From a virus: DNA of 64,000 bases. The DNA is taken from the IMG/VR virus record IMGVR_UViG_3300037485_001979, positions 1 through 64,000 of that record; one strand, 5' to 3'. The notes below the pieces were generated by a model. The model did no database searches. It saw nothing but the letters and a program-made list of their open reading frames with translations, and was not told the DNA's origin. Positions 2,738-59,325 of the stretch are shown here, in pieces. The position numbers and the translations under genes were made by a program. Position 1 is the first letter of the stretch; each line of letters opens with the position of its first letter.

Positions 2738-2748
2738 TGGAGCCCCTG

Positions 2749-3069: not shown

Positions 3070-3078
3070 AGTGTTTCC

Positions 3079-11259: not shown

Positions 11260-12198
11260 TCAATTCTGCGAGATGGTCACCAGGGCGACCGCAGCGGGGT
11301 TGGCGATGGTGGCGCCGCGTTCAGCGTACGCGAAGAATTCCAGGTTGTATGCGCGCTTGTCGACATACATCGTGGTGTCTTCGAGGACGTAGGACTTGCC
11401 CAGGAACTCCGGGGAAGCGAACACCCAGAAGCTGGATTCGGCGACGAGCTCGGTCTTGTTGGTAACGACCCAGTTGCAGCCGATCAGTTTCTTCTGTTGG
11501 AAGCCGTCGACCAACATGTCTTGCGACAAGTCGCCACCGGCTTCGTCACGGGTGAACTTACTGACGTCATGGATGGTGATGTTGTTGACCAGGATGGTCA
11601 CGCCGTCCAAGTGGGCGAAAGTACGTGGCAGGATCTTTTTGATCTCGAACAACGAGTTACGGGTGATGCCCGCGGGATCAACGAACTTGACGTTTTGGAC
11701 GATGCCGGTTTCAGGAACGATACCGCCCTGAGGTCCCACGATGGCTTGGCAAGCCGACAGCATCTTGCGGTCGAACTCGAAATCCATGTCGAGGATGGCG
11801 TTGTCCGAGATGACCTGGCGGATGTCCATACCGTAGGTACGGAGTTCCGAGGTATCCTTCGTGAACTTATGGGTCACGATACGATCGAAGTAGACCGGGT
11901 AACGGTCACCACGGAAGTAGTATTGGATGGGCTGCTGACCCAGGGGGATCGTGATAGCAGCGGGTGAGTTGGGTTCGCGTTCAACCAGCTTGACGTTCTT
12001 GTCATTGCTGAGTTGTGGGGTGAGTTCGTCATCCCCAATCTTGATCGCTGGCAGAATCTTCTCGAAGAACGAGGATTCACGGATGCGAACGCGGGTGAAA
12101 TCGGTCACCATGTCCGCTGCGGCTTTGATATGACCCTTTTCGAGCATACCGAAGAATGCAGCATTGGACTGGGCCGCGGACAGCTTTTTCTGACTCAT
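11260..12198 (-). CDS. major capsid protein (HK97-fold family candidate)
   Basis: A 312-residue protein starting MSQKKLSAAQSNAAFFGMLE, preceded by AAGGA. The pattern VRIRESSFFEKILPAI ... REPNSPAAITIP ... RYPVYFDRI ... KDTSELRTYGMDIRQ-VISDNAILDMD fits what I recall of a family of tailed-phage major capsid proteins. The C-terminal half has the capsid-like ILVNNITIHDVSKF, ASPEFLGKSYVL and AERGATIANPAAV segments. Gene order supports this: protease-like, low-complexity (scaffold-like), coiled-coil, decoration-like, then this gene, closed by a strong terminator. It has no N-terminal scaffold extension. Assignment is by pattern and context; virion proteomics or fold prediction would settle it. Confidence 0.75.
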   Translation of the reverse strand: MSQKKLSAAQSNAAFFGMLEKGHIKAAADMVTDFTRVRIRESSFFEKILPAIKIGDDELTPQLSNDKNVKLVEREPNSPAAITIPLGQQPIQYYFRGDRYPVYFDRIVTHKFTKDTSELRTYGMDIRQVISDNAILDMDFEFDRKMLSACQAIVGPQGGIVPETGIVQNVKFVDPAGITRNSLFEIKKILPRTFAHLDGVTILVNNITIHDVSKFTRDEAGGDLSQDMLVDGFQQKKLIGCNWVVTNKTELVAESSFWVFASPEFLGKSYVLEDTTMYVDKRAYNLEFFAYAERGATIANPAAVALVTISQN

Positions 12199-14893: not shown

Positions 14894-16294
14894 CTACTTC
14901 CTTGGTGACAAGGGTGATGGTAACGGGGTTGCGCGCCTCGACAAGGCCATGCCCTGAACGAGGGCTCCGAGCGTGGCTTCATCTGCGTTGTTATTGGGAT
15001 GCACGGCGAAAGCTACTTTGTAGTGGAGATAGAGGTCGGCAAGACCCCTACTCGCCGTGACATCAGGAGCACGACCAGCACCGGCCAACTTCACATTCGG
15101 CTGACCGGAGATTGTGGCGTGGAGAACCCGACGACTCGGGTGGTCTCCGCGCATCGATGTCGCGTAATCCAGGGAGCCCACGACCTCGTCCTCGAGACGA
15201 ATTGGGGTCGTGGATTCAGCGCCATCTAAAGAGTTGATTTCGATAGCAGATTTCAAGAGGCCATGAAAGCCTTGTTTAACAGCGAGATCATGTGCCAGGT
15301 GAACATCTGGAGAGATCGATGCCATCGGGATCTCGACGACAAAGTCTGCGAAGTCCCGGATACTGAGGACACACCCACGCTTGTGGAGCCAGTTCAGCAT
15401 CGAGGGGGCACCATGGGCCTCAAACGCCTTCTTGATCTCCTTGCGGGTCTCGAGATCGAGATCCTTGGGTTCTGGACCAATATCGGCGAGCTGGGCGAGA
15501 CCGCCGATTCGCTTCTCGATGGTGGCCAGCCGCATCATCATCGCATACTTCGATGAGTTCAGTTTCCGCATCGAGGTCTGCAGGGCAGCCTCGAAACCAG
15601 GGACTCCTGGTCGCTCTAGTGCCACCTTCCGCAGAGTATAACCAATGCGGTCAGCGGGTTTCCATACCGTGGACTGGTCCATGTAGTACGGATTCGGATT
15701 CTGCATGTAAACTTTTTGCCCATCCTTGGTGACTTCACCAAGCATGTGCTTGACGTGTTCGCAGTGATCCTTGGCCTCAGGTGCCTTGTGGCCACACACT
15801 GAACAGACGTCATAGGCCTGCATGGATCCCATGGATACCGGGACATCCTTGCCTTCTTCGAGAGCCTGGACCTCGTCAGCATTCTTTTCATTGTCGAGTG
15901 CTGAGAGAAGCTCGATTCTCGACATGGGTCCGTTGTGACCCGTGAACAGGATGTCGCCCGTCTTCTTATCGGGGTCATCGTTGTCATGGTTCTTGAAGAC
16001 ATGACCATGAGTCTTAAATCTGGTATGACAAGTCTTGTTGTCTTTCTCGCTGAAGCCATCGTTGTTACGATTATCCCCGTAGCGTTCCTCGTCACCCACT
16101 GCGATGGTATGGATGATGGTCTTCCCTGGGATCGGCTTCATCTCGGCGAGTTCCTTCTGGAACAGGAGACCGCCGGCCTCCTTCGCCGTCTTCATGAACA
16201 GCTCTTTGTCGAACCCATGACTCGAGAATCTCACCAGGGTTACCTCAGGGGCCTGGAAGTCGTAGGTGTGCGGAGAAAGAATCTTGGCAATCAT
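14894..16294 (-). CDS. putative prohead (head maturation) protease
   Basis: A 466-residue protein from ATG 16294 (MIAKILSPHTYDFQ), just past the upstream stop. The first 180 residues follow the pattern I associate with phage prohead proteases: DNRNNDGFSEKD (about 74-85), FKTHGHVFKNHDNDD with His103, then VPVSMGSMQ with Ser154. A probable metal-binding CSVCGHK ... DHCEH cluster (Cys164, Cys167, Cys178, His180) follows. In herpes-assemblin-type proteases Ser and His form the active site; assigning His103 and Ser154 is my inference. The C-terminal two thirds is helical and could act as an attached core or scaffold domain. Gene order (protease, low-complexity, coiled coil, capsid) supports the call. 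Confidence 0.55.
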   Translation of the reverse strand: MIAKILSPHTYDFQAPEVTLVRFSSHGFDKELFMKTAKEAGGLLFQKELAEMKPIPGKTIIHTIAVGDEERYGDNRNNDGFSEKDNKTCHTRFKTHGHVFKNHDNDDPDKKTGDILFTGHNGPMSRIELLSALDNEKNADEVQALEEGKDVPVSMGSMQAYDVCSVCGHKAPEAKDHCEHVKHMLGEVTKDGQKVYMQNPNPYYMDQSTVWKPADRIGYTLRKVALERPGVPGFEAALQTSMRKLNSSKYAMMMRLATIEKRIGGLAQLADIGPEPKDLDLETRKEIKKAFEAHGAPSMLNWLHKRGCVLSIRDFADFVVEIPMASISPDVHLAHDLAVKQGFHGLLKSAIEINSLDGAESTTPIRLEDEVVGSLDYATSMRGDHPSRRVLHATISGQPNVKLAGAGRAPDVTASRGLADLYLHYKVAFAVHPNNNADEATLGALVQGMALSRRATPLPSPLSPRK

Positions 16295-16298
16295 TTTA

Positions 16299-17543
16299 TT
16301 ACTTGCCCCATATCTTCTCACCCAGCATGGATGCCCCGGATCCCATGAAGCCATACCCGAGTGCGCGTGCTGCGACTCCACCAAGTGTTGGCTTGGTACT
16401 AATGCGTTGAGCACCCGCGATACCATGGGGGACCCCAACGATGTTGACTACCCTGGACCCCAGACCAGACGTAAACCCCTCACGGAGTCTATGAGCCGCT
16501 TGCTCCTGCGCGGAGAGTGCCTGGTGCTTTGTGATATCCGGCGTGTTCGCATTGAAGTCAAGTTTACGTTGACCTGAATCCGCGAAGCCCACCAGTTTCT
16601 CCGCATTGGCTTGTTGAATCGCCAAGTTGGGATCACTGTTGTTACCGAAGACTCGTTTGAGGATTGACTGCTTACTGGGGTCCGGAGTCATCGGGCCCTT
16701 CGCGGTGCCCTGATTCACGGCGTTGACCAATTCTTTGTTATCAAACAAGTCTTTGTTGTTCAGGATTGCCAGGGGGTGACTGGGATTGACCATAGAACCC
16801 GCGGCGAACGTGTGTACCGCATTTCCGGCTTCAAGGGGAGCACGTGGCCCCTTGTCACCCTCGAGTCCTGCTGCGGTGCCCATAGCACGCAGATGGGGCT
16901 CTGCGGCTTCACCGCCCTGATTGAGTTTGTTGATGAGACCGCCAGTGGTCTGGATACCATGATCGGGGCCACCCGGCAGTTTCTTCAGCGCAGGTACAGT
17001 GCCATGGAGGACCCCAAGACCAGCACCTAAACCAAAAGCACCAGTTCCAGTGGGGGTGTTGTCCTGCAACCACGCACTCATCTTCTCACGGGAGTCCCCG
17101 AAGATGCGACCACCAAGAGCCTTGTCGATTTCTTTGCGGTACACGTAGGCGGCGCCAAGACCAGCGGCGAGACCACCACTGGCCAAGGCCAGGGTCAACC
17201 ATTCCTTGGCACCCCAGCCCTTGTCGTCCTCCTCGTCCTCGGAGTCATCCGAGACGGGATACACGGCTTCAGCGGCACACTTGATAGCTATGTCTGCAAC
17301 GTTGTACGCTGTCCTCCCCGCTGACGCATAGTCATCTGCACGCCAGTCCTTCATGTCACGTGTTTTCCAGAAATCGGGGTCGGTTACCTTACCCATAACA
17401 TTGGAAACCATACCCTTACTGCTACGCCTTTTTTTGGGACTAGCGTGATTCGTTTTACTACGTGTACAGTCACCGTCTGAATCGGGGTAAACCTCTTCAG
17501 CGGCCTGCTTTGCAAAGGCGTCGTGGTCAGCATGGGTTACCAT
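16299..17543 (-). CDS. membrane-associated virion protein candidate
   Basis: A 414-residue protein starting MVTHADHDAFAKQAAEEVYP. The N-terminus holds two copies of a short motif, AKQAAEEVYPDSDGD (about 11-25) and IKCAAEAVYPVSDDSED (about 87-103), the second leading into a very acidic patch. A hydrophobic Gly/Ala-rich membrane segment follows (about 115-136, LTLALASGGLAAGLGAAYVY). The rest is soluble and Gly-rich. Similar small-residue membrane segments occur in many neighbouring products, suggesting a shared job such as an internal virion protein that contacts the host membrane. No family recognised. Confidence 0.66.
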   Translation of the reverse strand: MVTHADHDAFAKQAAEEVYPDSDGDCTRSKTNHASPKKRRSSKGMVSNVMGKVTDPDFWKTRDMKDWRADDYASAGRTAYNVADIAIKCAAEAVYPVSDDSEDEEDDKGWGAKEWLTLALASGGLAAGLGAAYVYRKEIDKALGGRIFGDSREKMSAWLQDNTPTGTGAFGLGAGLGVLHGTVPALKKLPGGPDHGIQTTGGLINKLNQGGEAAEPHLRAMGTAAGLEGDKGPRAPLEAGNAVHTFAAGSMVNPSHPLAILNNKDLFDNKELVNAVNQGTAKGPMTPDPSKQSILKRVFGNNSDPNLAIQQANAEKLVGFADSGQRKLDFNANTPDITKHQALSAQEQAAHRLREGFTSGLGSRVVNIVGVPHGIAGAQRISTKPTLGGVAARALGYGFMGSGASMLGEKIWGK

Positions 17544-26668: not shown

Positions 26669-27685
26669 TCACTTTGTGGCGGGGCCAGTCGCGGTTACCG
26701 GAGGTGTCGATTTGATTGCACCGTTTGTGGCGCTGGCCGGAGGTGCTGGGGGTGTGATCGGGACTACCGCACCGTTTGTCGCACTGCCCGGTGACTTACG
26801 TTGTAGCTGTGCCAACTCCGCTTTCAGGTCATCATTCGTCGGCAATTTAACTGGTGGAGCCCCCACGGGATCAGGTTTTAATAGCATGTTCATTGGATTT
26901 ATGTTATGCGCTGCGTCGAATATCTCCGGTCCAGCTTTATTCAAGTCTACATCGTTGCCAGCCTGTGGCTGCTTTTCCGGCGCTGTCGCTGGGGTTAGTG
27001 CATCCTGCGCTTTACCAAGCCCTTCCCGAATCTGGGGGAATGCCTTGTCGACATGGGGTCCCGCGAAGTAACCCGCGGTTCCGCCGGCGAGGGCAGCGAT
27101 GAGAGCATTGCGCCACTTGTTCTTCTTACTCAGGAGGGCAGCACCCCCACCGGCGAGAGCGGCACCAGTAACGGCACCGATATTGGCGGGGTCCTTGTAG
27201 AACGGGGTTGTCGGGGCGGCGTCTTGGGCAGTCTTCTTGCCAACAACCTTAGCAGGGGCCACCTTTGGTGCAGGGGCTGCTTTTGGCAACACGGCTGGCT
27301 TCGTCGCCGAGCGCGGGGCCATCTTGGCGCCAAGTGCTTCGAGAAAATCCGGTGAAGTCCCCACTGCGTTGCCATCGAAGTCGGCACGTGATGCCGCCGC
27401 TGTTTTGGCGACATCCTTGGCACCTGCTCCAGAGAGAGCACCGAGGCCCTGGCGGATCTGGGGGACCGCTTTGTCGACATGGGGACCCGCGACATAACCA
27501 GCGGCACCCCCAGCCAAAGCAGCGATGAGGGCGTTACGCAACTTGTTCTTCTTACTCAAGAGAGCTGCGCCACCACCGGCGAGAGTGGCACCAGCGACGG
27601 CACCGATATTGGCGGGGTCCTCATAGAAGGGGACTTCAGCAGCTGTTTTAGTCAGGCACAGGGCAAGAAGACGTGTTGGGCGCAT
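26669..27685 (-). CDS. membrane protein with two copies of a Gly-rich module
   Basis: A 338-residue protein starting MRPTRLLALCLTKTAAEVPF, with AGGA before the ATG. Residues about 19-82 and 151-214 are near-identical copies: PFY-DPANIGAV, GAALLSKKNK, RNALIAALAGG, AGPHVDKA, PQIR-GLG. Each copy has a Gly/Ala-rich hydrophobic pair of segments able to form a membrane hairpin. Between and after them are Pro/Ala/Lys-rich linkers. The N-terminus LTKTAAE is a clear example of the recurrent K-x-A-A-E motif. A virion or ejection protein that inserts into membrane is a reasonable guess; function is otherwise unknown. Confidence 0.72.
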   Translation of the reverse strand: MRPTRLLALCLTKTAAEVPFYEDPANIGAVAGATLAGGGAALLSKKNKLRNALIAALAGGAAGYVAGPHVDKAVPQIRQGLGALSGAGAKDVAKTAAASRADFDGNAVGTSPDFLEALGAKMAPRSATKPAVLPKAAPAPKVAPAKVVGKKTAQDAAPTTPFYKDPANIGAVTGAALAGGGAALLSKKNKWRNALIAALAGGTAGYFAGPHVDKAFPQIREGLGKAQDALTPATAPEKQPQAGNDVDLNKAGPEIFDAAHNINPMNMLLKPDPVGAPPVKLPTNDDLKAELAQLQRKSPGSATNGAVVPITPPAPPASATNGAIKSTPPVTATGPATK

Positions 27686-27754: not shown

Positions 27755-28699
27755 TCATGGGGCAGGCTGGGCTTCCCCTTGTCTGCGGATGGTATCGAAA
27801 ACTACTTGTTGGGCCTTACGCCTCGCCGCTGCCTTGATCTTAGCCAATGCGATTTCCTGGGCTTTAATGGCAGCCGCGGAGCCGACTATGCGCTCTACAG
27901 CTTTCACTTTTACCTGGGTCTCCGGGGATTTCCAGGCAGCTTTGGCGTCATCAACGGCCTCGCCTGCGATTTCCTTGCGGTCGTTCCAGACATCAACGAG
28001 AGTCTTAAATATGGCTGAGTTCTTGAAATCGTCTTTATTCGAGTGCATCAGTGCCGCTGCTAAACGCTTGCCAGTATCCACTCGTGTCGGAGCAAAGACA
28101 TTGCCTGCTCCAGTCATCGCGGCACGTGGGATGGTGTCACCGACGACATTGGGCAGCGTGAGCGCCTTCCGGGGCTGTGTGTAATCCTTGAATACGGGTT
28201 GTTCCTTGAATGTCCGCAGGAGCTCATCGAGGTAGACACGCCCCATCGCACGATTCACGGGGTTGGTGATATTCAGGGATCGCAAAGCAAACATGGGGAG
28301 ATGCTCGGCGACCCGTGCAGGGGATACCGGCAACCCGGTTTCCTTCACGATCATGGCGGCCGCGGAATCATTGGCCCTACTGGCAGCATCCCCGGCTGCG
28401 TATAGTCCGGTTCCCGCTGCGGTGGCCCCGAGCCCTGTGGCCAGGAACTTACCAGGTCTGGTGCCCATGCCCATGACAAGTCTGGGGATCGAGGAGGGGC
28501 CCACCTTAGTGGTCCCCGTCCATTGCTGATACGGAGTCATCTGCCCCTTGGGGGTCATCACGGGTGTGTGGAATTTCTGCACGGCATCAGTGGCCTTGTT
28601 GACCACTGGTTTCACCGCGCTGACCCCGGACTTCGCCGCGTTCCATATCCCGCTAAGACTGGCAGCTGCGGTCTTCGAGATTACACAGGGCAGCCGCAT
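27755..28699 (-). CDS. Ala/Gly-rich membrane-associated virion protein candidate
   Basis: A 314-residue protein starting MRLPCVISKTAAASLSGIWN; its ATG overlaps the stop of the polymerase beta gene (TAATG). A small-residue hydrophobic segment lies at about 95-115 (FLATGLGATAAGTGLYAAGD), and the C-terminal half is helical and basic. The N-terminal SKTAAAS repeats the regional K-x-A-A pattern. Coupling to the polymerase gene and similarity in style to nearby membrane proteins suggest co-packaging or co-assembly. No known family recognised. Confidence 0.68.
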   Translation of the reverse strand: MRLPCVISKTAAASLSGIWNAAKSGVSAVKPVVNKATDAVQKFHTPVMTPKGQMTPYQQWTGTTKVGPSSIPRLVMGMGTRPGKFLATGLGATAAGTGLYAAGDAASRANDSAAAMIVKETGLPVSPARVAEHLPMFALRSLNITNPVNRAMGRVYLDELLRTFKEQPVFKDYTQPRKALTLPNVVGDTIPRAAMTGAGNVFAPTRVDTGKRLAAALMHSNKDDFKNSAIFKTLVDVWNDRKEIAGEAVDDAKAAWKSPETQVKVKAVERIVGSAAAIKAQEIALAKIKAAARRKAQQVVFDTIRRQGEAQPAP

Positions 28700-38100: not shown

Positions 38101-40882
38101 CATTGAAGAGCCCCCTGAGCTGCCCCGCAGATTTATTCTGTTGTTCCCATGTCGAGGCATCGAGTCCAGGGGGTGCATTACCCCTGGGCTTCGAGGCCCC
38201 CGTGATCCTGGAGATCAAGGAGTCGTAGGGATTCCCGGCGCCTTTACCCAGGGTGTCGATGTCGATGACACCTGTGTTAAACGGCTCGGCTTCCTGCTTC
38301 ATGATGTTGAATGCACGGTCCCCAATCGTGCTCGCCAACATCAATCTGAGATCTGGGGGGAGCCCAGCGAACAATGGGCTGTCTTTAACAGTCCCATTCG
38401 CGAACTCAATGGCCCCCTGCATCAACTTGGCATCCACCAGCATCTTGGCGCCGCGTTTGTACCCGGCACCTAGCATGTTTAACTTGGATTCATCACCAAG
38501 ATTGTTGATATAGTTCTGTTTTCCCTGTCTTACATTAAAGGCTTGGAGAGGGGACAATGCAGTACCCCAGAAACCCATACCATGGCCACCGTTTGCGAAT
38601 GTGTTCTGGGCAACCTGAGCAATCTTCTCGTCTTCGTACCCCGTGGTATCCGTGAGCAGCCCATACGCCCATCTCCCGATATCCAGTGTGGACGAGACAC
38701 CCTCCATGATTACGGCGCCAGCTGCAGTGTTCGCACTCAGAGCACGGATTCCCTTGAGGACAGAAGCTAGTCTAACAGCGGAGGATGCCCCAGCGGCGGC
38801 CCCACTACTCGGAGATCCCGTGAGGACTCTAGCAGTGGATTTCATGCGATCGAGAGCACCAGTGTAAGCCTTCCCTGCAGTAGCCGCGGGGTTCAGCACT
38901 GCGCCTGCAACGGACTTCGTGGCATCAATGGGGTGCCTGACGGTTTGATAAACCTTGTTCAGGATTCCCGTGGGGCTGGCCCCTGGGGGCGCACTGGCCT
39001 TCACGGCATCCTGGGTGGCCTTGTCGAGTCCACGCCACCAGAGCTGCTGGGCACCGAAATGTGCGGACATGTCCAGGGTCTGCTGGCCAATGTTGAGAGC
39101 TGAACTCTTGATCCATTCAGATGTCGGGACATCTACGTTCGTGGGGTTGTTCCACCTGTTATAGATTGCCCCGCCAACGCCGGCTAGGGTGCCCCATAAA
39201 GGCATACCAATAAGGCTACCATTCCTGGACATCAGCGCTGACGCCATTATCCCAGCGTTCTGAGTCACGTTTCCGAAATTATCACGATCACGAAGTTCTC
39301 GATAGAGATCAGACCCGGGTGGAATCTTTTTGTCCAGGATGGAGTTCACCCTGGCCTGGGCTTCCTGCACAGGTAACCCACGAACCTCGTGGAGTGCATC
39401 CTGCATCGCATTGAAGTGGTTGTGATAATTGATGACATTGGGGTCCCCCCCAACAATCCTAGCCCCCTTCTTATCGATCCGGTTTATGTTGAGATCAGTC
39501 GGCATGAATGGGGCTGCTACAGGAGTGCATGCCCCGAGTCTCGGCAAGAATAGTTCAACTGGTACGTCGAGAAAGTTGGAAAGCGAACTAGCGACTTCAG
39601 CGACGGGGCGTGTCCCCGAACTCACCATGTTATGGTGATCTTTGATTGCGCGTAAGGTGTGGTCAACTTGGAGTTGAGCCCGGATCCCAGACTCAGATTT
39701 TACCCTCTCATAAACTCGAGTCGCGGCTGCAACAGCATTATCCAGGAACTCTGGGTTCTTCTCACTCCACTGCTGGATCTCAGCCGGAGTCTCCGGGATC
39801 CCCATCTTGAGGAACTCAGTGGCCATGGTATGCGCGGGGTTCAGGGGATCCCCAGCCGCAGCCTTCATCCCAGTGGTGACATCGGCGATGTAGCCAGCAC
39901 GCAGCTTGGCCCCGAGATTCCGAGATTCCGGGTGATCTGGGTTATCTACGAACGCAGACAACATACCCTCGGGGTTCAGCCCCTTATTCGCGGTGTCCAC
40001 GCGGTACGCCTTCAAGGCGTCGGCAAGATTTGATGGTTTCCCTGTCCTCTCGGATTCAATGATCGCTGCCTGCGCTGACTTCAGGAGCATGTAATCATCG
40101 GTGTTGGGTTCACCATTCTCTAGGTGTAATAAAACTGGAAGTCCAGTTTTCCTATGAGTGTGGTAGTCCACTGCGGTATCAATGATGTCTCTGGCAGTCT
40201 TGTCCGCAGAAGCACGGTTCCAGATGTCACCAGTGGCACCAGTATCGGCTTTCCAGAATCTAATGATTTTATCAGTGGGTGCCCCAGACGCCTTTCCGAC
40301 TTCCCAGGCCTGGGCAGCAAAGTATCTCTTGGCCATCCAGGCCTTCGCGGCCTCGTCAGGATTCGGCCCATCCAGTTTCGGAGGCGGTGCCCATCTGGAA
40401 TCAAACTTGAACTCGCCATCCTTGGCCTGGGCATCACTGGCCAACATGTCGACGTATTGGTCGCGAACCCCAGGTGACAGTGTCTTTGGTATCGCGGCGA
40501 GATCAGGGGTCATCGTGGCGGCACCATCGTTGACCTGCTTGGTGAGCTCCTTCGAGGGAGTCTTGCCGCCTGCGATGGTATCGACGAGATCACTGACCCC
40601 TGGGATCCTCATGGCTCCAATAGAAGTCAGGGCCGCTCGAGCCTTATCTGGGTAATTCTTGATCCAGATGTAACCCGCGGCGCCAAGACCACCGATGGCA
40701 GCCAACCAGATCCATGTATCGGACTTTTCTTCATCCTCGTCGTCATCCGGGGTCCGGGAGTTCGCGGCGAGTTTACGTGTCTTACCATGCCCAAAGAAAT
40801 TGGGCGTGTTATTGCGGAGTTCATCAATAGGAAAATGAGCGCGTCGATTCTTGACGCGCTTGATCTCCGACTTTGGTTTCAT
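35177..40882 (-). CDS. giant 1901-residue membrane-anchored virion protein candidate
   Basis: This is the largest gene in the window; it starts MKPKSEIKRVKNRRAHF and overlaps the portal stop by ATGA. A basic N-terminus is followed by KLAANSRTPDDDEDEEK and one membrane segment at about 57-75. A very long, mostly helical soluble region follows, with Gly-rich linkers around 680-720. Pro/Thr/Gln-rich low complexity covers about 1560-1690, and a second, strong hydrophobic pair lies at about 1717-1750 (LVLMLMGGKAGAIMGALVLG). Size, membrane anchors and position right after the portal gene resemble large internal ejection proteins of other phages, but I see no lysozyme or transglycosylase motif. Function is inferred from layout only. 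Confidence 0.72.
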   Translation of the reverse strand: MKPKSEIKRVKNRRAHFPIDELRNNTPNFFGHGKTRKLAANSRTPDDDEDEEKSDTWIWLAAIGGLGAAGYIWIKNYPDKARAALTSIGAMRIPGVSDLVDTIAGGKTPSKELTKQVNDGAATMTPDLAAIPKTLSPGVRDQYVDMLASDAQAKDGEFKFDSRWAPPPKLDGPNPDEAAKAWMAKRYFAAQAWEVGKASGAPTDKIIRFWKADTGATGDIWNRASADKTARDIIDTAVDYHTHRKTGLPVLLHLENGEPNTDDYMLLKSAQAAIIESERTGKPSNLADALKAYRVDTANKGLNPEGMLSAFVDNPDHPESRNLGAKLRAGYIADVTTGMKAAAGDPLNPAHTMATEFLKMGIPETPAEIQQWSEKNPEFLDNAVAAATRVYERVKSESGIRAQLQVDHTLRAIKDHHNMVSSGTRPVAEVASSLSNFLDVPVELFLPRLGACTPVAAPFMPTDLNINRIDKKGARIVGGDPNVINYHNHFNAMQDALHEVRGLPVQEAQARVNSILDKKIPPGSDLYRELRDRDNFGNVTQNAGIMASALMSRNGSLIGMPLWGTLAGVGGAIYNRWNNPTNVDVPTSEWIKSSALNIGQQTLDMSAHFGAQQLWWRGLDKATQDAVKASAPPGASPTGILNKVYQTVRHPIDATKSVAGAVLNPAATAGKAYTGALDRMKSTARVLTGSPSSGAAAGASSAVRLASVLKGIRALSANTAAGAVIMEGVSSTLDIGRWAYGLLTDTTGYEDEKIAQVAQNTFANGGHGMGFWGTALSPLQAFNVRQGKQNYINNLGDESKLNMLGAGYKRGAKMLVDAKLMQGAIEFANGTVKDSPLFAGLPPDLRLMLASTIGDRAFNIMKQEAEPFNTGVIDIDTLGKGAGNPYDSLISRITGASKPRGNAPPGLDASTWEQQNKSAGQLRGLFNVLGDRDLRDIARTSVAATHDRVRTTVRDALDTSPLYMHLPAAYKDQLAQRAQAHWQSKTDGIVNNLESVKTHDELASVLSQASTAIAPATQQINDFSTGAGFGEKPRFDISRNSPHAIHRGVQGILDTLMDPQDIQALGAPETTKLITDSTGLTPEQIMAKARVKTTDYTDVMKPKMLQRGALRKQEIVDDLKKNGLGDLLVEYRGSDRTSDKYSWGGKTFGGPGNPMNSRYGFDSMGGDSLKNQRIVLEDRREAAKAAAYQRLDIDPKDPNAESIFQAKLSRLPETTAKAVLAPFTRANASLHALNQDVRSQGGHTLGGAAGFERFKDNTFVNPEATNKLLQELGEKYGFDKVEPPAVQGRYYVDAKGNSHDLAEGQEAPKGFKEQAYGFDSSKWDPQGDNAPAWTFNKTTGRIMQVSPEAIRRGYQVDSPLTNPGLYLTGVSRYQTAHPEFWAAKSPETFKNMDAYWRQHQAKAGEAPDPFQPAPEYIMGADGKPTQSIGEGANARPVTREDVITHMHENPKVYRDMFPGGFRGHSTPQTPPGDPAEQSWSSAYWDKRAGGNRAQAIKDYEAYRKNLTKVEAPKAPVVPLPQEPAKVKPTEIQPVKPVVSNTPPVIGNPKKAFAKVWGRGCKLAAESADGGTPLENVVKPMRPLAEGAIDWAKNMMGMQKQPTSQPPPATPDAGDMGKTYTNSIKTPPSAPQPPPGTGGNTGTPALTQQEKSDAVAKSQAAKRKSTQAPQTTATSTTVSATTQATPTSPDATKPPQAPSVWDQAKAKAQEGMDWAQKYNLDLAAIPVGLVLMLMGGKAGAIMGALVLGGGAYGAYQRYQSLNNAGGEIPPPTDPDLLAQIKADPKKMDDYRAKVVKERLEVMRQASADEGKWQQWMKSPDNARFFNSLELAHDFMPSFLKSRVEASDPYFKGINDDQFEALLAYLTGNRIGKPKASRWSLTGLANNTDLKLRSWGLAGGKKP

Positions 40883-42750
40883 TGGGGAGCTCCGCCACCA
40901 GGGGCCTGACCTCCCTGCCCACCCTGGAGAAGCATTTGCTGGCCCTGTGACGAGGCCTGCTGACGTATTTCATCCAGCTTGGCCTTGACGAGGCCATGGA
41001 GATCTTTGTTGCCTTCGCGAAGCGCCTTGAGCTGCTGCTTGCGGTCGTACTCGGGCATCCCGGCTAATTGACCCGCGATCTGCTCGGCCTGGGAAGCCAT
41101 GCCGCCCAGGGTACTCGCATTTGCGCCGCCACCTGCGGGGAGTCCCCCCATAGGAGATCCACCCATGGGCATACCAGGAGGTGGAGGTGCACCGGCACCG
41201 CCTTGCTGCTGGGCCTGCTGTTGCTGCAGCATCGCCGAGGGGCTCTGGGCTCCGGCGAGGGCACTGACAGCTCCCATCTCCTGATCCTTGACCGCCTTGT
41301 CGTCCTGCTCCTTCTGGAGCTCCTGGATAAACTCTTGATGCTTGAAGACTTTCCTGGCCTCGTCGCCGGCGAGGACACCCAGGGGTTCCAGCGCGGTCTG
41401 AGGACTGATCTGATTCGCAGCCATGAGCTGCATGAGAATGTTCTTGCGTTCCTGGTCGTCAGCAATGGTACTCCGCTGAATCCGGACATCGGTTTCCTCG
41501 AGACCAAAGTTGCGTGCGGCAACTTTAACGATCCATTGCAGGATCGAGGTGTACATCGCGGGCACCGCAGACCACGCGGACTCAAACAGACGCAGGGCCA
41601 TCGGAGCCGCCTGTGCTGTCAGTGTCATCTGGTGGTACTCAAGTGGGACATTGCACTGGTTCAAGGATTCCTGCTGACGGAACTTCAACTTGTCCGCGGG
41701 GAGGAGATCCTTGCCCTCACCACCCAGGAACTGGTAGTTCACGGGGTACGGTGCGGTGTGGTAAGACATGGGTTCAGCGCGATGTGCATTGATGATACGA
41801 TTCATACCACCAACGAAGTTGTCCATGCCATGCTGGATCATGGGGTCGTTCTGATTCGCCATTGCTGGAGAAATCAAACGGAGGCCCAGGGTGTAGTCCG
41901 ATGCAATGGCTTGGTCGGCACGGTTCAGGATCTGCTGCAACCAGAATGTCCGGAAGTTGGAGATCGAGGCGGGGACACCCCAGCCACGAGTCCGCATCCC
42001 CGAGATCACGGGTTCATCGACGTGGTAAATCATGTCCTCGTCGAAGAGGAGACGACCATTAACCGCGACGGCCTCGAGGACCTCGATGGGAGTGTCATCA
42101 ATGAAGATGCGGGCCTTCGACATGATGTCTTGACGGAAGTCGTTGGGGATCCTCCACCAAATGTTCTTGCGCTGGGACCAGAAGTTCTGGGCGAGCTCGA
42201 TCTCGAAGGGGGAGTACCGGAGGACACGGATCCGGGAGATATCGGGATCCTTGCGATCCCGGAGCACGAAGTCCTGGGTATTCCCACAGGAAGGGCATGG
42301 CTTCTTGCGGAGCCAGCGGACCCCTCGCTGAGAAGTCAGATCAATGGTGTAATCGACATGCTTGATGGGCTGCTCGAAGTAGCAGTGTGGGCATGACAGG
42401 TTACGCTTGAATGGTAAGTATATGGACAGGAAGCAGTTACCATAACATAGGAAATCGGATCCTGCCGCCTTTAGCTCGCGGCTATAGTTGAGATGCTTCT
42501 GGAAGAGATCCTTGAACTCGGACTCCTCATTCTCGGAGAGTGCCGGGAATTGAACATTGGTAATGAAATGTGCGATGACACGCCCGAAAGCAGAACGATA
42601 GTTGCCATCGGTGAGCCAGAGGTACTGGGCCCACCACATGATGAGCTCATGGTTAGTGGGCATCACCGTGGAGGCATAGTCGAGCCAGGGGACATGGAGT
42701 TGACGTACGGCCTGGCCGCGATCCCCACCATTGACATTGAGATTCGCCAT
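40879..42750 (-). CDS. portal protein
   Basis: A 623-residue protein starting MANLNVNGGDRGQAVRQLHV. It shows the layout I associate with large-phage portals: LCYGNCFLSIYLPFKR (about 101-116), a zinc-ribbon pair (Cys120/Cys123 and Cys152/Cys155), IRVLRYSPFEIE, WWRIPNDFRQDIM, MIYHVDEPVISGM-RTRGWGVP, then FWLQQILNRADQAIASDYTL and RLISPAMANQNDPM. The C-terminal 130 residues are Gln/Gly/Pro/Met-rich and probably flexible. The portal forms the dodecameric DNA channel at one capsid vertex. It is followed directly, with an ATGA overlap, by the giant virion protein gene. No terminase gene was seen next to it. Confidence 0.85.
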   Translation of the reverse strand: MANLNVNGGDRGQAVRQLHVPWLDYASTVMPTNHELIMWWAQYLWLTDGNYRSAFGRVIAHFITNVQFPALSENEESEFKDLFQKHLNYSRELKAAGSDFLCYGNCFLSIYLPFKRNLSCPHCYFEQPIKHVDYTIDLTSQRGVRWLRKKPCPSCGNTQDFVLRDRKDPDISRIRVLRYSPFEIELAQNFWSQRKNIWWRIPNDFRQDIMSKARIFIDDTPIEVLEAVAVNGRLLFDEDMIYHVDEPVISGMRTRGWGVPASISNFRTFWLQQILNRADQAIASDYTLGLRLISPAMANQNDPMIQHGMDNFVGGMNRIINAHRAEPMSYHTAPYPVNYQFLGGEGKDLLPADKLKFRQQESLNQCNVPLEYHQMTLTAQAAPMALRLFESAWSAVPAMYTSILQWIVKVAARNFGLEETDVRIQRSTIADDQERKNILMQLMAANQISPQTALEPLGVLAGDEARKVFKHQEFIQELQKEQDDKAVKDQEMGAVSALAGAQSPSAMLQQQQAQQQGGAGAPPPPGMPMGGSPMGGLPAGGGANASTLGGMASQAEQIAGQLAGMPEYDRKQQLKALREGNKDLHGLVKAKLDEIRQQASSQGQQMLLQGGQGGQAPGGGAPQ

Positions 42751-43939: not shown

Positions 43940-44803
43940 TCACTGAGCGTCAAGCCCTGCTATGTAGCCGTCGAGGTCGCTGCCATTGATCTCGGTGAGT
44001 AAAACACGCTCCCAGAGCACACGGACTCCATTGAGATTCCGCTTGGCTTCTGGGGTGTCACCCTCGAGGTCGGCATAGGGAACGAAGGCATCAAGGGTGC
44101 CCGGATCAGTCTCCTGTGTCGAGACTATCCAGTTGTGGTTCCCTGCCGTATTGGTGTCGAAAGGATGCAACAGTGTGAAGTCCGCGAAGAGGAGGCTGCG
44201 AGGTGCCACCCCAGCGGCGACGAGATCCTGGAGCATGGTCTTCATGGGGTCAATGTTGGGGCGACCAATGATATTGATCCAGATGTTCCGAGTAATCGCG
44301 GCACAGGCCTTGAAGAAGGCGACCTGATCCCCGGTGATCAGAGACTTGCCATCATAGGCGTCGTGGAGGATAAAATCGTAGGGGTAATTGTCACGCGGGC
44401 TCCCCGCGATGAGGGGGATCATGGCGAGGGCATCAGCGGTGAATACCCGAAGACGGCCGGACTCGATGGCAGCATTGACCTCAGGGAATCCTTGCTTGCA
44501 CAAATGGACTGCCACGGGGTCAATTTCGATGACATCGATGCGGACCCCAGGGAAGTTGGTGAGCACGGCGACGGCACCGGCACCACTGCCGAGACCAATC
44601 ATGAGACCTCTCCCCCTTGGGTTCATCGCTGCGGCGGCAAGCCACCCCAGGGTGTACGGGGATGCCGAGACGACACCGGGGCCGCCGTGCTTAGACGGGG
44701 GATCCAGGAACGCGGCACCCTGGACCTGCCCATTGATTCGGAGCTGGCGTGCGCCATTGACGTCGATGACATCGACGACGCCGAACATACCCGGGGCCAT
44801 CAT
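43940..44803 (-). CDS. spermidine-synthase-like SAM-binding enzyme (methyltransferase or aminopropyltransferase fold)
   Basis: A 287-residue protein overlapping the upstream stop by ATGA. It has the Rossmann signature of class I methyltransferases and spermidine synthases: GLMIGLGSGAGAVAVL (about 66-81), VIEIDPVAV (91-99), VFTADALAM (about 120-128) and FILHDAYDGKS (144-154), where an aspartate-rich loop would hold substrate. The YDFILHDAYDG arrangement is closest to polyamine-synthase-like proteins, but the amine-binding residues cannot be confirmed by eye, so it may methylate another substrate. Such a gene inside a virion-type operon is unusual. Candidate roles are polyamine supply for DNA packaging or modification of a virion component. 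Confidence 0.75.
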   Translation of the reverse strand: MMAPGMFGVVDVIDVNGARQLRINGQVQGAAFLDPPSKHGGPGVVSASPYTLGWLAAAAMNPRGRGLMIGLGSGAGAVAVLTNFPGVRIDVIEIDPVAVHLCKQGFPEVNAAIESGRLRVFTADALAMIPLIAGSPRDNYPYDFILHDAYDGKSLITGDQVAFFKACAAITRNIWINIIGRPNIDPMKTMLQDLVAAGVAPRSLLFADFTLLHPFDTNTAGNHNWIVSTQETDPGTLDAFVPYADLEGDTPEAKRNLNGVRVLWERVLLTEINGSDLDGYIAGLDAQ

Positions 44804-45747
44804 GCCGACTGCAACTCAGGATGGGTATGGTCAGCAGGGGCGTACTTCCGACGTAGTTTAGTGGGTCTGACATCCCCACTGTAGGGGTCATCAGATGACC
44901 GACGTTTCTTTGTAGACTCCACAGGACGATTAGACATTTTGTATAAGAGATACAATAGTCCAGCAGTGGCTACACCAGCAGTACCCAGGACAAGAGGTGA
45001 TGTCAAAGTTTTAACAGCATCGCCCATGTTTTCGACACCACGTGATGTCCGCTCACCAGTGGCGGCTACATCTTTAGAAAGTTGTTCAACATTCTTCGCC
45101 GTATTTGCCGTACTTGTCAAGCCTTCAACAACTGGTTTATTTGATTCCTCGATGAGTTTCTTGGAGGCTCCAGCTGCCCCCTCGAAAGCATTGGCTGCAC
45201 TACTAATTGACTTCGCAGATCTAGCGGCTTCCAACCCAAGACCAATTCCAGCTTTAACACCGATATTCTTCATGATTGCGTCAGTTCCAGCCCTTGATTT
45301 CAAGGGGTCAAGAATGGCAAGCGCACGCTGGGGATTCGCAGATGAAATCTCGAGCTGTCCCCCCTTCGTAGTGGGGTGATCAATCCGCATCGTAAATGCC
45401 CCTGGATTTTTGGGGTCTGGTGACCAGATATTAGATTTAGATAGATCGGGTTGTCCTTTACCTGCTTTTAAGGCATCTTGGAGTTCGCTGTGTCCAGCGT
45501 GTAAGTGGCCCCCACGCATTGCGTGTCGCTGCCCCTTCGTAGTCGCCAGTGCCCCTATCGCAGAGAAAGTTGCGGCTTGCAGTGGATCGATGGGTTGTCC
45601 ACGAATCTTATCAATGGCAATGGGAATGGTGCCACCAGCTACACCTGTGGCCACTGGCCAAATGATGTCACGGAGTGCCGCCGCCGCCTCCTTTTGCATG
45701 GCCACTTTACGAGTGAGATAAAACAACATGATCTGTGCTGGGCTCAT
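44800..45747 (-). CDS. membrane protein with C-terminal anchor, unknown
   Basis: A 315-residue protein starting MSPAQIMLFYLTRKVAMQKE. The N-terminal region has a hydrophobic Gly-rich stretch (WPVATGVAGGTIPIAI, about 30-45). The centre is helical (KNVEQLSKDVAATGERTSRG), and a clear membrane segment lies near 247-267 (LVLGTAGVATAGLLYLLYKM), followed by a highly basic tail. ATGA overlaps link it to both neighbours. Base composition is visibly more AT-rich than the flanking genes, which could mean recent acquisition. No family recognised. Confidence 0.68.
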   Translation of the reverse strand: MSPAQIMLFYLTRKVAMQKEAAAALRDIIWPVATGVAGGTIPIAIDKIRGQPIDPLQAATFSAIGALATTKGQRHAMRGGHLHAGHSELQDALKAGKGQPDLSKSNIWSPDPKNPGAFTMRIDHPTTKGGQLEISSANPQRALAILDPLKSRAGTDAIMKNIGVKAGIGLGLEAARSAKSISSAANAFEGAAGASKKLIEESNKPVVEGLTSTANTAKNVEQLSKDVAATGERTSRGVENMGDAVKTLTSPLVLGTAGVATAGLLYLLYKMSNRPVESTKKRRSSDDPYSGDVRPTKLRRKYAPADHTHPELQSA

Positions 45748-47834
45748 ATCTGGGGCTCCTGTGCAGACGTTTGTAGCGGTGCTTCGGCTACTGCCTCTGG
45801 GTTCTGGATCTCGGGGGTCTCCGGCTTCACCGCCTTCGACCTCCGAATCGCACGGTGGATCACCCTCGCCCTGGCACGATCAAGATTACGGAATGGCTTA
45901 TTGATGGCTAGACCCATGGACCCGTAGACCTGCTTGAGGACCTGGTCATGGGGGATCCACTCACCGGGGAAATCCGCGGGTGCCTCGCCTTCACCGAGAT
46001 GAAAGGCGTAGTCGTAGCCGTGGTACCCAGGCTCCGGCGCCCCTTCATCAGGGATCACGCGGACGTTGGACGAGTAGGGGGCTGGGGCCCCCTTACCCTC
46101 AGTCGGGAAATGAAATCGACGGTTGCTGTCACGTCGAACCAATACTTTACCTTCGGGATCCAAATAGACGTACTCAGTTTTAGGAAGCAGCGCGGCAGCA
46201 TCTGCCTGCTTCTTCAGTGGCATCTCGGTGTGCGTGGCCAGGACGTCCTCACCGACCCCGCCTGTGAAAAACTCTTTCTCATCGAAGTAGGTGACCCCAG
46301 CGGTCTCTGCGGCGTCATGATCGTCATCGGTGTTGCCAACCATGCAGATCACGGGATCCAAGGAGAACGCTTCCTCGGCGTATTCGAGCATCGCCGGCGA
46401 GGGTTTCCTACCCGCATCGTCTTCATCGGTGCAGAACACGATGTCGTCGATCTCAGGCAGGAGCTCAAGGGTCTCGTCATTGAAGTCGAGGACATCAGCT
46501 AGGGTGCTCGTCCCCATGACACTGCGATTCGTGACCCCGATGATGCGGACCCCCGCTGCCTTAAACTTCTTCAGGAGTTCCTTGACCCCAGGCTGTATCT
46601 TCTGAGTAGCATCGATGCCGGCGTCGTCATCCCATTCGGCGACCACGGTGCCATCGAGATCAACGAGGAGCCCAGGCGCCGTCGATGGTGTCTTGTCCTG
46701 GAACTTCTGGGTGCGCATGGATCCCGAGATCTCAGCGGCATGCTTCTCGGCGAGAGTATTGGTGTGCTTGGCCATCGTGAAATCCCCGTTGGTCGGGGAG
46801 TCCCCGCTGCGGAGGACAAGGAGAACCCGGCCATCCGGGAATCTCCGGACTTCATCGAAGTAGTGGCCATGGGCGGCCTCGAGGTCCTGGAGGGCCTTCA
46901 CGAAGACCTTGGGGTCCTTGGGCGCATAGATACGGCGAAGACTATTGCGGTACAGTGCCCAGCCGTGGTGCTGACGCGGAACACTGGCCAGCTTCTTGCC
47001 CTTGAGTTCGGGATCCTTCTTCGCCATGCCCCTGGCGGCCTCGACGAGTTCGAGGCGGACCTCGTTGGCCCTCTTGGCCCAGTCGTTCTTGGCTACGAGT
47101 TCTTTGAGACGGGAGATCAGCGTGGCGAAGGGGATCACATCGAAGTCCTCCCGATCCGGGTGTGTGGTCCCCAGCTTGCCGTCATGGACTCCAGTGAAGA
47201 AGTAGGTTCGTTCACCGTCGAATGCGGAGTCGTCCCAGAAGTCGTTGACCCCCTGGGGCCAAATCGACTCCACGATCTCACGGGTCTCCGGGGAGATGAT
47301 CTTGAGATCGGCTTCCTCAATGGCCTCCCGAATCGCGGCGAGCAATGGGGGTTCGCCATCGTCGATGCCACCCCCGGGGAACAGGATGTAGTCTCCCTTG
47401 TCGATGCCGACGACTCCATCCTTGTCGAACGCGACGATCTCGGATCTCGGCCTCAGGAGCTGGCTCGGGGAGCCCTCGTGTTTATCCGGTGTGGGTTCAT
47501 TCTCGGCGGCACGCTTGCCCAGCCCTCTGGCGAAGCTGTGATCCCTGCGTTGTCTTGCCAAGGCGGCCTCATCGGGCGCGACATCCTTGGGCTTCGCCGG
47601 CATCATCTTTGTCGCATTGGTCCAGATCTTCGCTGCTGGAGACGGCAGGCTGTGGTCCTCGGATGTCCCCCTGCAGTCACCGCCACTGAAGAGTTCAAGA
47701 AAGGTTTTGCCCTCGACCATGTGGGCATTCGTGGCTTTAACAGGATTCCCACCCGTTGGCGTCGCCACAGGTGTGTTGGTTACGGGGCGATCACTGCCCC
47801 GGCCTGGAGATGGAATCTTGGTCTCCGCACGCAT
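45744..47834 (-). CDS. multidomain Nudix hydrolase and HAD phosphatase
   Basis: A 696-residue protein with at least two enzyme domains. A Nudix domain covers about 130-240 with the box GGIDDGEPPLLAAI-REAIEEADL (155-177), matching G-x5-E-x7-R-E-U-x-E-E except that Asp replaces the later Gly. A HAD phosphatase covers about 388-530: VDLDGT (391-396, nucleophile Asp392), VTNRS (444-448), Lys487 and GNTDDD (500-505). The C-terminal part (about 550-650, YVYLDPEGKVLVRRDSN ... FHFPTEGKG) looks like a second Nudix-type fold lacking the catalytic box. Nudix enzymes cleave nucleoside diphosphate-linked compounds and HAD enzymes remove phosphates, so the protein may process nucleotides or RNA ends. Its substrate is unknown. 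Confidence 0.85.
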   Translation of the reverse strand: MRAETKIPSPGRGSDRPVTNTPVATPTGGNPVKATNAHMVEGKTFLELFSGGDCRGTSEDHSLPSPAAKIWTNATKMMPAKPKDVAPDEAALARQRRDHSFARGLGKRAAENEPTPDKHEGSPSQLLRPRSEIVAFDKDGVVGIDKGDYILFPGGGIDDGEPPLLAAIREAIEEADLKIISPETREIVESIWPQGVNDFWDDSAFDGERTYFFTGVHDGKLGTTHPDREDFDVIPFATLISRLKELVAKNDWAKRANEVRLELVEAARGMAKKDPELKGKKLASVPRQHHGWALYRNSLRRIYAPKDPKVFVKALQDLEAAHGHYFDEVRRFPDGRVLLVLRSGDSPTNGDFTMAKHTNTLAEKHAAEISGSMRTQKFQDKTPSTAPGLLVDLDGTVVAEWDDDAGIDATQKIQPGVKELLKKFKAAGVRIIGVTNRSVMGTSTLADVLDFNDETLELLPEIDDIVFCTDEDDAGRKPSPAMLEYAEEAFSLDPVICMVGNTDDDHDAAETAGVTYFDEKEFFTGGVGEDVLATHTEMPLKKQADAAALLPKTEYVYLDPEGKVLVRRDSNRRFHFPTEGKGAPAPYSSNVRVIPDEGAPEPGYHGYDYAFHLGEGEAPADFPGEWIPHDQVLKQVYGSMGLAINKPFRNLDRARARVIHRAIRRSKAVKPETPEIQNPEAVAEAPLQTSAQEPQI

Positions 47835-48577
47835 CAGATACCCCCGAGATACCGGATCGCATAGGCGCCGAGACGCCGGAGTTCCACTGCTGTCTTGGGG
47901 AGATTGGGGCCCATGCCATAGCTGGCGCCCGTGGACTGTGTTGGCGGGCTCCCGGGCTGCCCACTCGCCGTGGAGGTCATGGGTTGGGCTTGGGCGACAC
48001 CACCGGAACCGATACCAGGAGTGGACCCCTGGGCTCCACTGACCTGACCACCTCCAGCGGGGATGATGGTCTTTGAGCGATGCTGGGGGTCCACGGCGAG
48101 ATCGCCGGGACCCTGGTTCTTCTGGATCCCCACGCCACCCGGTGCGGGCATCCTGCTCACATTGGGGGTCGAGGATGCCGTATTGGAGACTGACATCGAT
48201 GTGTTCGGCAGCCTGCCACCAGCCATCGCCTTCTTTTCCAACTTCTCGGATTCCGTATAATACTTTGGATTCTTGGCGAGGTGGTCGATGGAGATTTCTT
48301 TACGTGCCTCGAGGTTGGGGGTGTGCTCACCCTCTTCCTTGATCCCCTTGATGAGTTCCTTGACACTGAGCTTGCCATGCCTTGGTGTCTGCCCCCCGAG
48401 GATGGCAGCTGCGACCTTGCCAACACCTAACCCCAGGAATGCCGCCTCTTTCTTCCAGTTCTCCGGTTTACGCCCCTGCTTGTTGGCAGTAGCGTAGAAC
48501 ACACGCTCAGCCTTTTCCTTACTGTAGGTGTCTCGCATGGAATTAAGAACTTTCTTGGCATCCCCGACGATAGGCAT
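47834..48577 (-). CDS. DUF5661-like protein with low-complexity C-terminus
   Basis: A 247-residue protein starting MPIVGDAKKVLNSMRDTYSK, with AAGGA before the ATG. The N-terminal motif KAERVFYATANKQGRKP is common in phage proteins. Residues about 70-115 (KELIKGIKEEGEHTPNLEA, KEISIDHLAKNPKYYTE) match what I recall of DUF5661. The C-terminal 110 residues are Gly/Ser/Pro/Gln-rich and disordered, ending in PKTAVELRRLG. The stop overlaps the Nudix-HAD start (TGATG). Function of the DUF is unknown to me. Confidence 0.7.
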   Translation of the reverse strand: MPIVGDAKKVLNSMRDTYSKEKAERVFYATANKQGRKPENWKKEAAFLGLGVGKVAAAILGGQTPRHGKLSVKELIKGIKEEGEHTPNLEARKEISIDHLAKNPKYYTESEKLEKKAMAGGRLPNTSMSVSNTASSTPNVSRMPAPGGVGIQKNQGPGDLAVDPQHRSKTIIPAGGGQVSGAQGSTPGIGSGGVAQAQPMTSTASGQPGSPPTQSTGASYGMGPNLPKTAVELRRLGAYAIRYLGGI

Positions 48578-49100: not shown

Positions 49101-49859
49101 CTAGGGGGTCACTGGCACCTCACTCAGAGCCTCTAGCTCTGCAACTCTAGCGATTTCTCGTGTGTCACGTATGCCCTGCAGATGCCTCCCCAGGGAGTAA
49201 ATCATGGTGTGAATACTGCCAAGCGTTGTGAGACCGATCTCAACGTCATCCACGCTCCGACGTAAGATTACAACCTCGTCTGGGTTAGTCGGATAATGAA
49301 TAAGTTGTGGAAACTGGCGTGACACCGAACGCTCGACTAGCTCCCCATCAAGCAGAAACAACCCTACGCACTCCTCATACATTATCGCATAGGGTGAAGC
49401 GCCCAGGGGGTTGTTGTTTTCATTGCGCCAGATGCGCCGCCTCGTGGTCCCCAACACCGTCAATGGCGCGTAGTTAGGTGCACTGTAATTCCCGAGACCA
49501 TCTCGAGCATAACGGGCAGCTTCGGCGGCATCCCGCAAGGACTGCATGTGCCGCCCCAGGGAGTAGATCATGGTGTGGACCACGCCTAAAGTTGTCAGCT
49601 GTATCAACTCATCGGTGATGACGTGGCGGAGCTCAACTACCTCTTCAGGACGTACAGGGCAGTGAATCAGGGCGACACTGTGAGTTCGTACAGGAACCTC
49701 GCGCTGGGTGCCGTCAATAAGCCCCAGCCCGACATCCTCCTCGTGCATCGTCGCGAATGGAGCGTGGTCTACCGGGTTGTCATTCTCATTCCTCCATATC
49801 CGACGCCGCGTACTGCCGAGCGAAGACAATGGGGAATAATTGGGTATAAAGTAGGGCAT
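49101..49859 (-). CDS. unknown protein made of two tandem repeats
   Basis: A 252-residue protein preceded by GGGGAGAGGAG. It consists of two homologous halves about 122 residues apart: NYSPLSSLGSTRRRIWRNEN (7-26) against NYAPLTVLGTTRRRIWRNEN (129-148), and TLGVVHTMIYSLGRHMQSLR against TLGSIHTMIYSLGRHLQGIR. The copies differ enough to be an old duplication. It is soluble with no recognised catalytic motif. It lies after the DUF2793 fibre gene, with a 135-base gap, so it may be a fibre chaperone or tail accessory protein. Confidence 0.74.
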   Translation of the reverse strand: MPYFIPNYSPLSSLGSTRRRIWRNENDNPVDHAPFATMHEEDVGLGLIDGTQREVPVRTHSVALIHCPVRPEEVVELRHVITDELIQLTTLGVVHTMIYSLGRHMQSLRDAAEAARYARDGLGNYSAPNYAPLTVLGTTRRRIWRNENNNPLGASPYAIMYEECVGLFLLDGELVERSVSRQFPQLIHYPTNPDEVVILRRSVDDVEIGLTTLGSIHTMIYSLGRHLQGIRDTREIARVAELEALSEVPVTP

Positions 49860-59238: not shown

Positions 59239-59325
59239 ATGACACTCCATGTAGTCGTTGGTTTTTTCGTCACAGGTGCTACATCCTGTGGGGGTTTACT
59301 GTCAGTCAAGTCTGGTTGTGTTGGC

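Follow-up and report, generated by a model that had tools for sequence, protein, structure and literature searches.

A candidate head-packaged Nudix–HAD polyprotein with putative K-x-A cleavage sites in a lineage of large phages

The window analyzed here, a stretch of 64,000 bases, comprises bases 1–64000 of the 171,559-base (171.6-kb) record of an uncultured phage. Nearly all window genes are on the minus strand and include those encoding the major capsid protein, head protease, portal, split RNA polymerase beta/beta' and fibres (Table 1). In the head/portal operon lies an intact ORF of 696 aa (45744–47834, minus strand), and homologues sharing its whole architecture are present in loci L007 (93% identity) and L002/L003 (92%). 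The head maturation protease has been found in 8 out of 8 relatives searched. Comparison of the portal and capsid proteins identified no close cultured phage; both are 26–28% identical to their counterparts from Salmonella phage Arash and three Vibrio phages, and the order of the portal, RNA polymerase and structural genes is similar in phage Arash.

Table 1. Features of the polyprotein gene and of related head genes in the window.
Feature	Position	Strand	Evidence
696-aa polyprotein: low-confidence N-terminal region, Nudix, linker, HAD, pseudo-Nudix	45744..47834	-	intact ORF; 92–93% homologues of same architecture; Pfam
Candidate cleavage site K107-R-A-A, before Nudix	47505..47516	-	K-x-A-[AG] at matching place in G001, G004, L041; K-x-A-A nearby in G005
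Catalytic Nudix domain (predicted), aa 128–270	47025..47453	-	PF00293; PDB profile matches; 22 invariant columns in 6 relatives
Nudix box, aa 155–177, Gly176 to Asp	47304..47372	-	sequence; alignment A1
Candidate cleavage site K281-L-A-S, after Nudix	46983..46994	-	K-x-A at matching place in G001, G004, G005, L041
Candidate cleavage site K364-H-A-A, before HAD	46734..46745	-	site position outside folded domains
HAD-IIIA phosphatase domain, aa 388–525 (D392, D394, T435, K477; N501 in motif IV)	46260..46673	-	PF00702; TIGR01662; PDB GmhB 4pnh 1e-11
Candidate cleavage site K542-Q-A-D, before pseudo-Nudix	46200..46211	-	K, A, D invariant (alignments A1, A2); also in L041, L044
Box-less pseudo-Nudix C-module, aa 549–668	45831..46190	-	AlphaFold; Foldseek RppH, MutY, phage NUDIX
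Portal protein	40879..42750	-	PHROG 64 portal 3.1e-4; phage Arash orthologue annotated portal
Inner-protein candidate, two tandem copies of one segment, K-T-A-[AQ] ahead of each	26669..27685	-	sequence; motif positions 13 and 151
Head maturation protease, start probably near 16294	14894..16438	-	PHROG 18299 head maturation protease 1.9e-8
Major capsid protein	11260..12198	-	phage Arash orthologue annotated major capsid protein

Several further minus-strand genes of the window deserve description. The gene at 43940–44803 encodes a spermidine-synthase/methyltransferase-like protein (PF01564, just under the cut-off), kept between the portal and polyprotein genes in relatives at ~35% identity. The neighbour on the other side, 47834–48577, has a weak match to DUF5661 (4.5e-4, below the cut-off), and its matching region also occurs inside the polyprotein of relative G004, ahead of the C-terminal module (C-module). 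The product of 49101–49859 consists of two similar halves, ~115 aa each, and a single-copy protein of L003 and L007 matches both. The RNA polymerase is of the multisubunit type: the ORF 28699–33246 appears to join beta with the start of beta' and ends near the DFDGD motif, while 22498–25548 encodes the remainder of beta', into which an intein appears to be inserted; both genes also contain K-x-A sites. Ribonucleotide reductase (55768–59250; PHROG 367, 3.5e-80) is apparently intein-interrupted as well, and long intein-looking insertions are seen in the portals of L003 and G004 and in the G004 protease, the latter positioned at the S-M-G motif. Finally, an open frame of >900 aa at 1–3100, with collagen-like G-x-y repeats, continues towards the window edge and probably encodes a fibre.

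The Nudix domain is matched by PF00293 at residues 151–239 (E = 2.1e-8, 34.7 bits with the gathering score of 21.1), and the PDB profile matches are DR1025, Ap4A hydrolase and NUDT15, the nearest relatives being of the Ap4A/NTP type as much as of the ADP-sugar type. Its box, G155-x5-E161-x7-R169-E170-A-I-E173-E174-A-D176-L, retains the catalytic Glu residues and is complete relative to the GX5EX7REUXEEXGU consensus, except for Asp in place of Gly at position 176. P193, 16 residues past the box by our count, is invariant in the alignment. Based on these sequence features we assign residues 128–270 to the Nudix hydrolase family and predict pyrophosphohydrolase activity.

The HAD domain satisfies both PF00702 (residues 396–513, E = 2.7e-9, above the gathering score) and the HAD-SF-IIIA family of NCBIfam (TIGR01662; 47.3 bits, cut-off 44.6), with GmhB/HisB phosphatases as the closest solved relatives. 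The PNK3P score of 22.0 bits is exactly at the cut-off of 22, and the PDB profile matches are to GmhB/HisB, none to PNKP. Motifs I (DLDGT; D392/D394), II (T435/S438) and III (K477) are all present. In motif IV (G-N501-T-D-D-D) Asn replaces the Asp of the usual G-D, and D503/D504 follow; the HAD domain of L010 retains GD. Asn501 is a possible weakness of the window copy. Among eight genomes searched, this HAD family is present solely in the polyprotein gene. A weak Toprim_2 match to the region was treated as a chance similarity.

The C-module (residues 536–668) has no Pfam match, and comparison of its profile with that of the Nudix domain yields nothing significant (hhalign probability 0.8%). 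Modelled by AlphaFold alone with its relatives, it has pLDDT 85.3 and pTM 0.76, the full-length model being too poor for use outside this module. Foldseek finds Nudix proteins at the top of both structure libraries: the best PDB match is E. coli RppH (E = 8.2e-4, probability 1.00, TMq 0.56), the Nudix-like domain of MutY is also matched, and among viral proteins a phage NUDIX protein scores highest (E = 6e-4). The model lacks the helix between the third and next strands, and the box residues are absent. The predicted fold, with TM of about 0.5, supports assignment of the C-module to the Nudix clan as a member without the box and its loop-helix-loop. As it has no Nudix box, the module is presumably non-hydrolytic and more likely binds than hydrolyses. 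Weak matches to TRIM71 and cytochrome f were attributed to chance. A search of GTDB genomes produced no confirmed match to the C-module in bacteria.

The initial annotation, made from the sequence alone, had described an intact Nudix box with one Gly to Asp change, a full set of HAD motifs and a box-less Nudix-like C-terminus. The Nudix box agrees with this description, the substitution being at position 176 of a domain scoring above the gathering score; the C-terminal assignment, undetectable by sequence comparison, is borne out by the fold; and for the HAD domain the family score and motifs I–III stand, while “full” is slightly generous given the Asn in place of the usual Asp in motif IV.

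Relatives of the polyprotein were collected by searches of phage contigs with the portal, Nudix and C-module, and their genes mostly adjoin the portal gene. The architectures vary widely. The 917-aa protein of G005 (locus L010) consists of an N-extension, Nudix, HAD and C-module, and the protein of L044 (about 1396 aa) has the same order followed by a further module. HAD is absent from four other variants: G001 (L005; 512 aa), comprised of Nudix and C-module; L041, with a HiPIP-like domain, Nudix and C-module; G003 (L008/L032; 999 aa), with membrane-like extensions, Nudix and C-module; and G004 (L009; 1491 aa), containing LigD 3'-phosphoesterase (58.2 bits), DNA ligase (32.0 bits), weak HiPIP, Nudix, weak DUF5661 and C-module. 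In the most distant relative, L045 (515 aa), Nudix is accompanied by a P-loop kinase and a PNKP-like HAD (weak match), without the C-module; the portal of this phage is 34% identical, and its Nudix domain is 52% identical to that of G003. Moreover, one module of ~330 aa is found ahead of Nudix in G003 and behind the C-module in L044 (E = 4e-13), and in each protein it adjoins a K-V-A-[EA] site.

Across these architectures, Nudix is the constant part, as is the C-module except in L045, and the other units, that is, HAD, LigD phosphoesterase with DNA ligase, P-loop kinase, HiPIP-like and membrane modules, are exchanged; the underlying alignments are shallow (6–9 members), and several relative records are incomplete. 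As a large multidomain phage protein with shuffled enzyme domains, the window protein is a candidate polyvalent protein. Besides, in the L044 ORF 4666–8853 a segment at about residues 264–385, with H-E-L-T-E and K-T-A-S ahead of it, has no Pfam match and may be metallopeptidase-like.

All four candidate sites K107, K281, K364 and K542 lie outside the folded domains, and a fifth K-x-A, at K425 within the HAD domain, is probably not a cleavage site. With domain limits set by hand, 30 of 36 motif lysines in the polyprotein family are outside folded units, compared to 124 of 243 other lysines (p = 2.5e-4); R-x-A sites of the same proteins likewise tend to fall in linkers (9 of 13).

In the head/inner-protein block (10.8–48.6 kb), [LQMI]-x-K-x-A-[ASEDGQ] occurs 37 times, whereas shuffling of the proteins predicts 7.6 (z = 10.9) and never gave more than 16 in 300 rounds. 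K-x-A-[ASEDGQ] is found in 22 out of 26 ORFs, and the block holds 84 motif sites in total. Tail/fibre ORFs contain one motif with 0.7 expected (z = 0.4), and the automatically called ORFs of the remaining 107 kb show no enrichment (K-x-A-A, 11 with 16.6 expected). The motif classes were chosen post hoc from the data, and a fairer test is the unbiased ranking of about 1,000 spaced residue pairs, where K-x-A is at rank 1–4 in each of the six phages ranked, and comes 1169th out of 1200 in the remainder of the window phage genome. K-x-A is enriched in every relative tested, including the isolated Salmonella phage Arash and Vibrio phage D69 (z from 3.3 to 5.9), while R-x-A and K-A are not; K..A is not enriched either, except modestly in the window and its near-duplicate G002 (z of 2.1 and 2.9). 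The ~20 kb surrounding the portal did not suffice to reveal the motif in several relatives, and longer head regions showed enrichment. A mere helical richness in Ala and Lys was rejected as an explanation, given that R-x-A (also not enriched in the head block of the window), E-x-A-A, AA-x-K and K-A show no enrichment, and that neither tail genes nor the rest of the genome show an excess of the motif.

The motif logo has L or Q at position –2, then K, T/V, A, followed by A/E/S and E/D, and the residue after A depends on the lineage: A in the window phage, E in G005, S in D69. Sites are denser near N-termini, with 64 of 405 in the first 30 residues and 31.4 expected. The N-arm of the capsid protein retains K25-[EA]-A27 (12118–12126) in all eight genomes, down to 26% identity, and seven aligned head proteases share an invariant L-x-K-V-A directly after the catalytic/Cys-rich region, as well as K-x-A near the N-terminus. 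In the giant phage SPN3US, the head protease gp245 processes capsid, portal and ejection proteins at AXE and trims off its own C-terminal propeptide (PMC10052503). The distribution of the K-x-A sites is accordingly the one expected of a protease code, and the head protease may recognize them. Two more proposals of the initial annotation are sustained: K-x-A-A-type sites do flank the domains, being enriched beyond chance, and the Nudix–HAD gene does belong to a virion operon, with a place near the portal in relatives.

We infer, with a probability of about 0.58, that in this large phage lineage the gene product is packaged into the head as an enzyme polyprotein, that the prohead protease cuts it and that the pieces enter the cell with the DNA. 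A terminal module would bring the precursor into the head, and the head protease would cut it inside the prohead at L-x-K-[TV]-A-(A/S/E/G/D) to release Nudix, linker, HAD and pseudo-Nudix as separate pieces. Packaging and injection of the freed enzymes together with DNA are suggested by the gene place and the motif, and entry with the DNA is well motivated by the head protease, the clade-wide motif and known precedents. Less firmly, the freed enzymes may process phosphates on nucleic-acid ends or nucleotides, with Nudix cleaving NDP-X and HAD removing phosphate monoesters, possibly for repair of incoming or damaged ends or for clearing host nucleotide signals. Against this reading, the number of sites, 84 in the head block, is much too high for cleavage at every one, and the example of SPN3US shows that cleavage may bypass the majority of head proteins, including some whose sequences fit (PMC10052503). 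HAD motif IV is also degenerate in the window copy.

The restriction of the motif to the head block and its N-terminal bias could also mean that K-x-A is a head-targeting or scaffold-docking motif of an effector packaged and working as a single polypeptide, in which the pseudo-Nudix would bind substrate or capsid; multidomain virion proteins can indeed be packaged uncut, e.g., N4 virion RNA polymerase (PMC5512222). We consider this unlikely, as recurrence of the sites between successive domains and around the catalytic domain of the protease itself fits cleavage rather than a single targeting tag. That the gene encodes an ordinary late-expressed metabolic enzyme, neither packaged nor cut and merely sited in the virion operon, is very improbable: Nudix and HAD domains are common in cellular and phage enzymes, and many phage Nudix proteins are early or standalone according to PMC9503650, but the near-portal place is conserved in related phages, the C-module has no confirmed match in GTDB, and the head-block motif occurs in the polyprotein linkers. 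Since the place is conserved and no GTDB hit to the C-module has been confirmed, chance acquisition of a simple host housekeeping gene is unlikely as well.

Compatible with either cut or uncut packaging is a different function, whereby the injected Nudix would cleave ADP-ribose-type or dinucleotide signals and HAD would strip the resulting phosphates, countering nucleotide-based host defence. Such a role has been proposed for virion-packaged Nudix domains (PMC9503650); the invariant P193 agrees with it, a proline downstream of the box being common to ADP-ribose diphosphatases (PMC5389931), and G001 keeps Nudix without HAD or ligase. On the other hand, the nearest PDB relatives are of the Ap4A/NTP type no less than of the ADP-sugar type, and fusion partners in relatives are nucleic-acid end enzymes. 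We therefore hold signal clearance to be rather unlikely, and favor nucleic-acid end processing because LigD phosphoesterase and DNA ligase, or P-loop kinase and PNKP-like HAD, are predicted in the same chain in relatives; the Nudix candidate may still have an ADP-ribose-type activity.

Extending the packaged-and-cut reading to the whole lineage, including the cultured Salmonella and Vibrio phages, we tentatively suggest that a head-protease code L-x-K-[TV]-A-(small/acidic) trims head proteins, and that in the uncultured branch it may process a polyprotein made of interchangeable cassettes (Nudix, HAD, LigD phosphoesterase, DNA ligase, kinase) to yield an injected repair or counter-defence kit, with the box-less Nudix fold as a constant loading/binding tag. 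Should K-x-A prove to be a genuine code, it would make both the processed head proteome and the injected enzymes of the lineage predictable from sequence, and would be an example of phages evolving injected enzyme sets via shuffled protease-delimited cassettes. A genome-delivered phosphoesterase/ligase kit would be a candidate for immediate repair of incoming DNA/RNA ends or, alternatively, for disabling nucleotide-based host defence.

Injected phage proteins with several domains, packaging of Nudix domains and maturation by head proteases all have precedents (PMC5512222, PMC9503650, PMC10052503). In the literature searched, with most subscription journals beyond its reach, we found no description of this domain combination, the K-x-A code or the box-less Nudix module, and no paper on the K-x-A motif or phage Arash. 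Polyvalent proteins of phages and conjugative elements are large, multidomain, with shuffled enzymatic domains, and are predicted to be packaged and injected (Iyer et al., 2017, PMC5512222); some, such as P1 DarA and DdrB, are proteolytically processed (PMC5512222). The window family resembles them in the shuffling of enzyme domains in one large phage protein, but differs in having constant Nudix and box-less Nudix C-module and K-x-A-delimited cassettes; in PMC5512222, NUDIX comes up a single time, adjacent or fused to InPase domains, and neither DNA ligase nor the K-x-A motif is mentioned. Injection has been proposed for phage Nudix domains that are fused to, or encoded next to, head genes (MuF, portal, capsid protease; Iyer et al., 2022, PMC9503650), and the window Nudix, encoded among head genes, would be similar; the accessible part of that paper describes viral Nudix domains as typically standalone and contains no Nudix–HAD–pseudo-Nudix fusion of this kind. 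The C-module, with its predicted Nudix fold lacking a working box and MutY among the best fold matches, resembles non-catalytic Nudix homology domains, e.g., those of MutY and DBC1, which have a likely binding role (PMC5389931). In the A/G-specific glycosylases and isomerases of that paper the loop-helix-loop is preserved, whereas the C-module model has no box helix. Finally, the predicted code shares with that of SPN3US gp245 its short, three-residue form, but would be K-x-A rather than AXE, and would also separate enzyme domains of one precursor.
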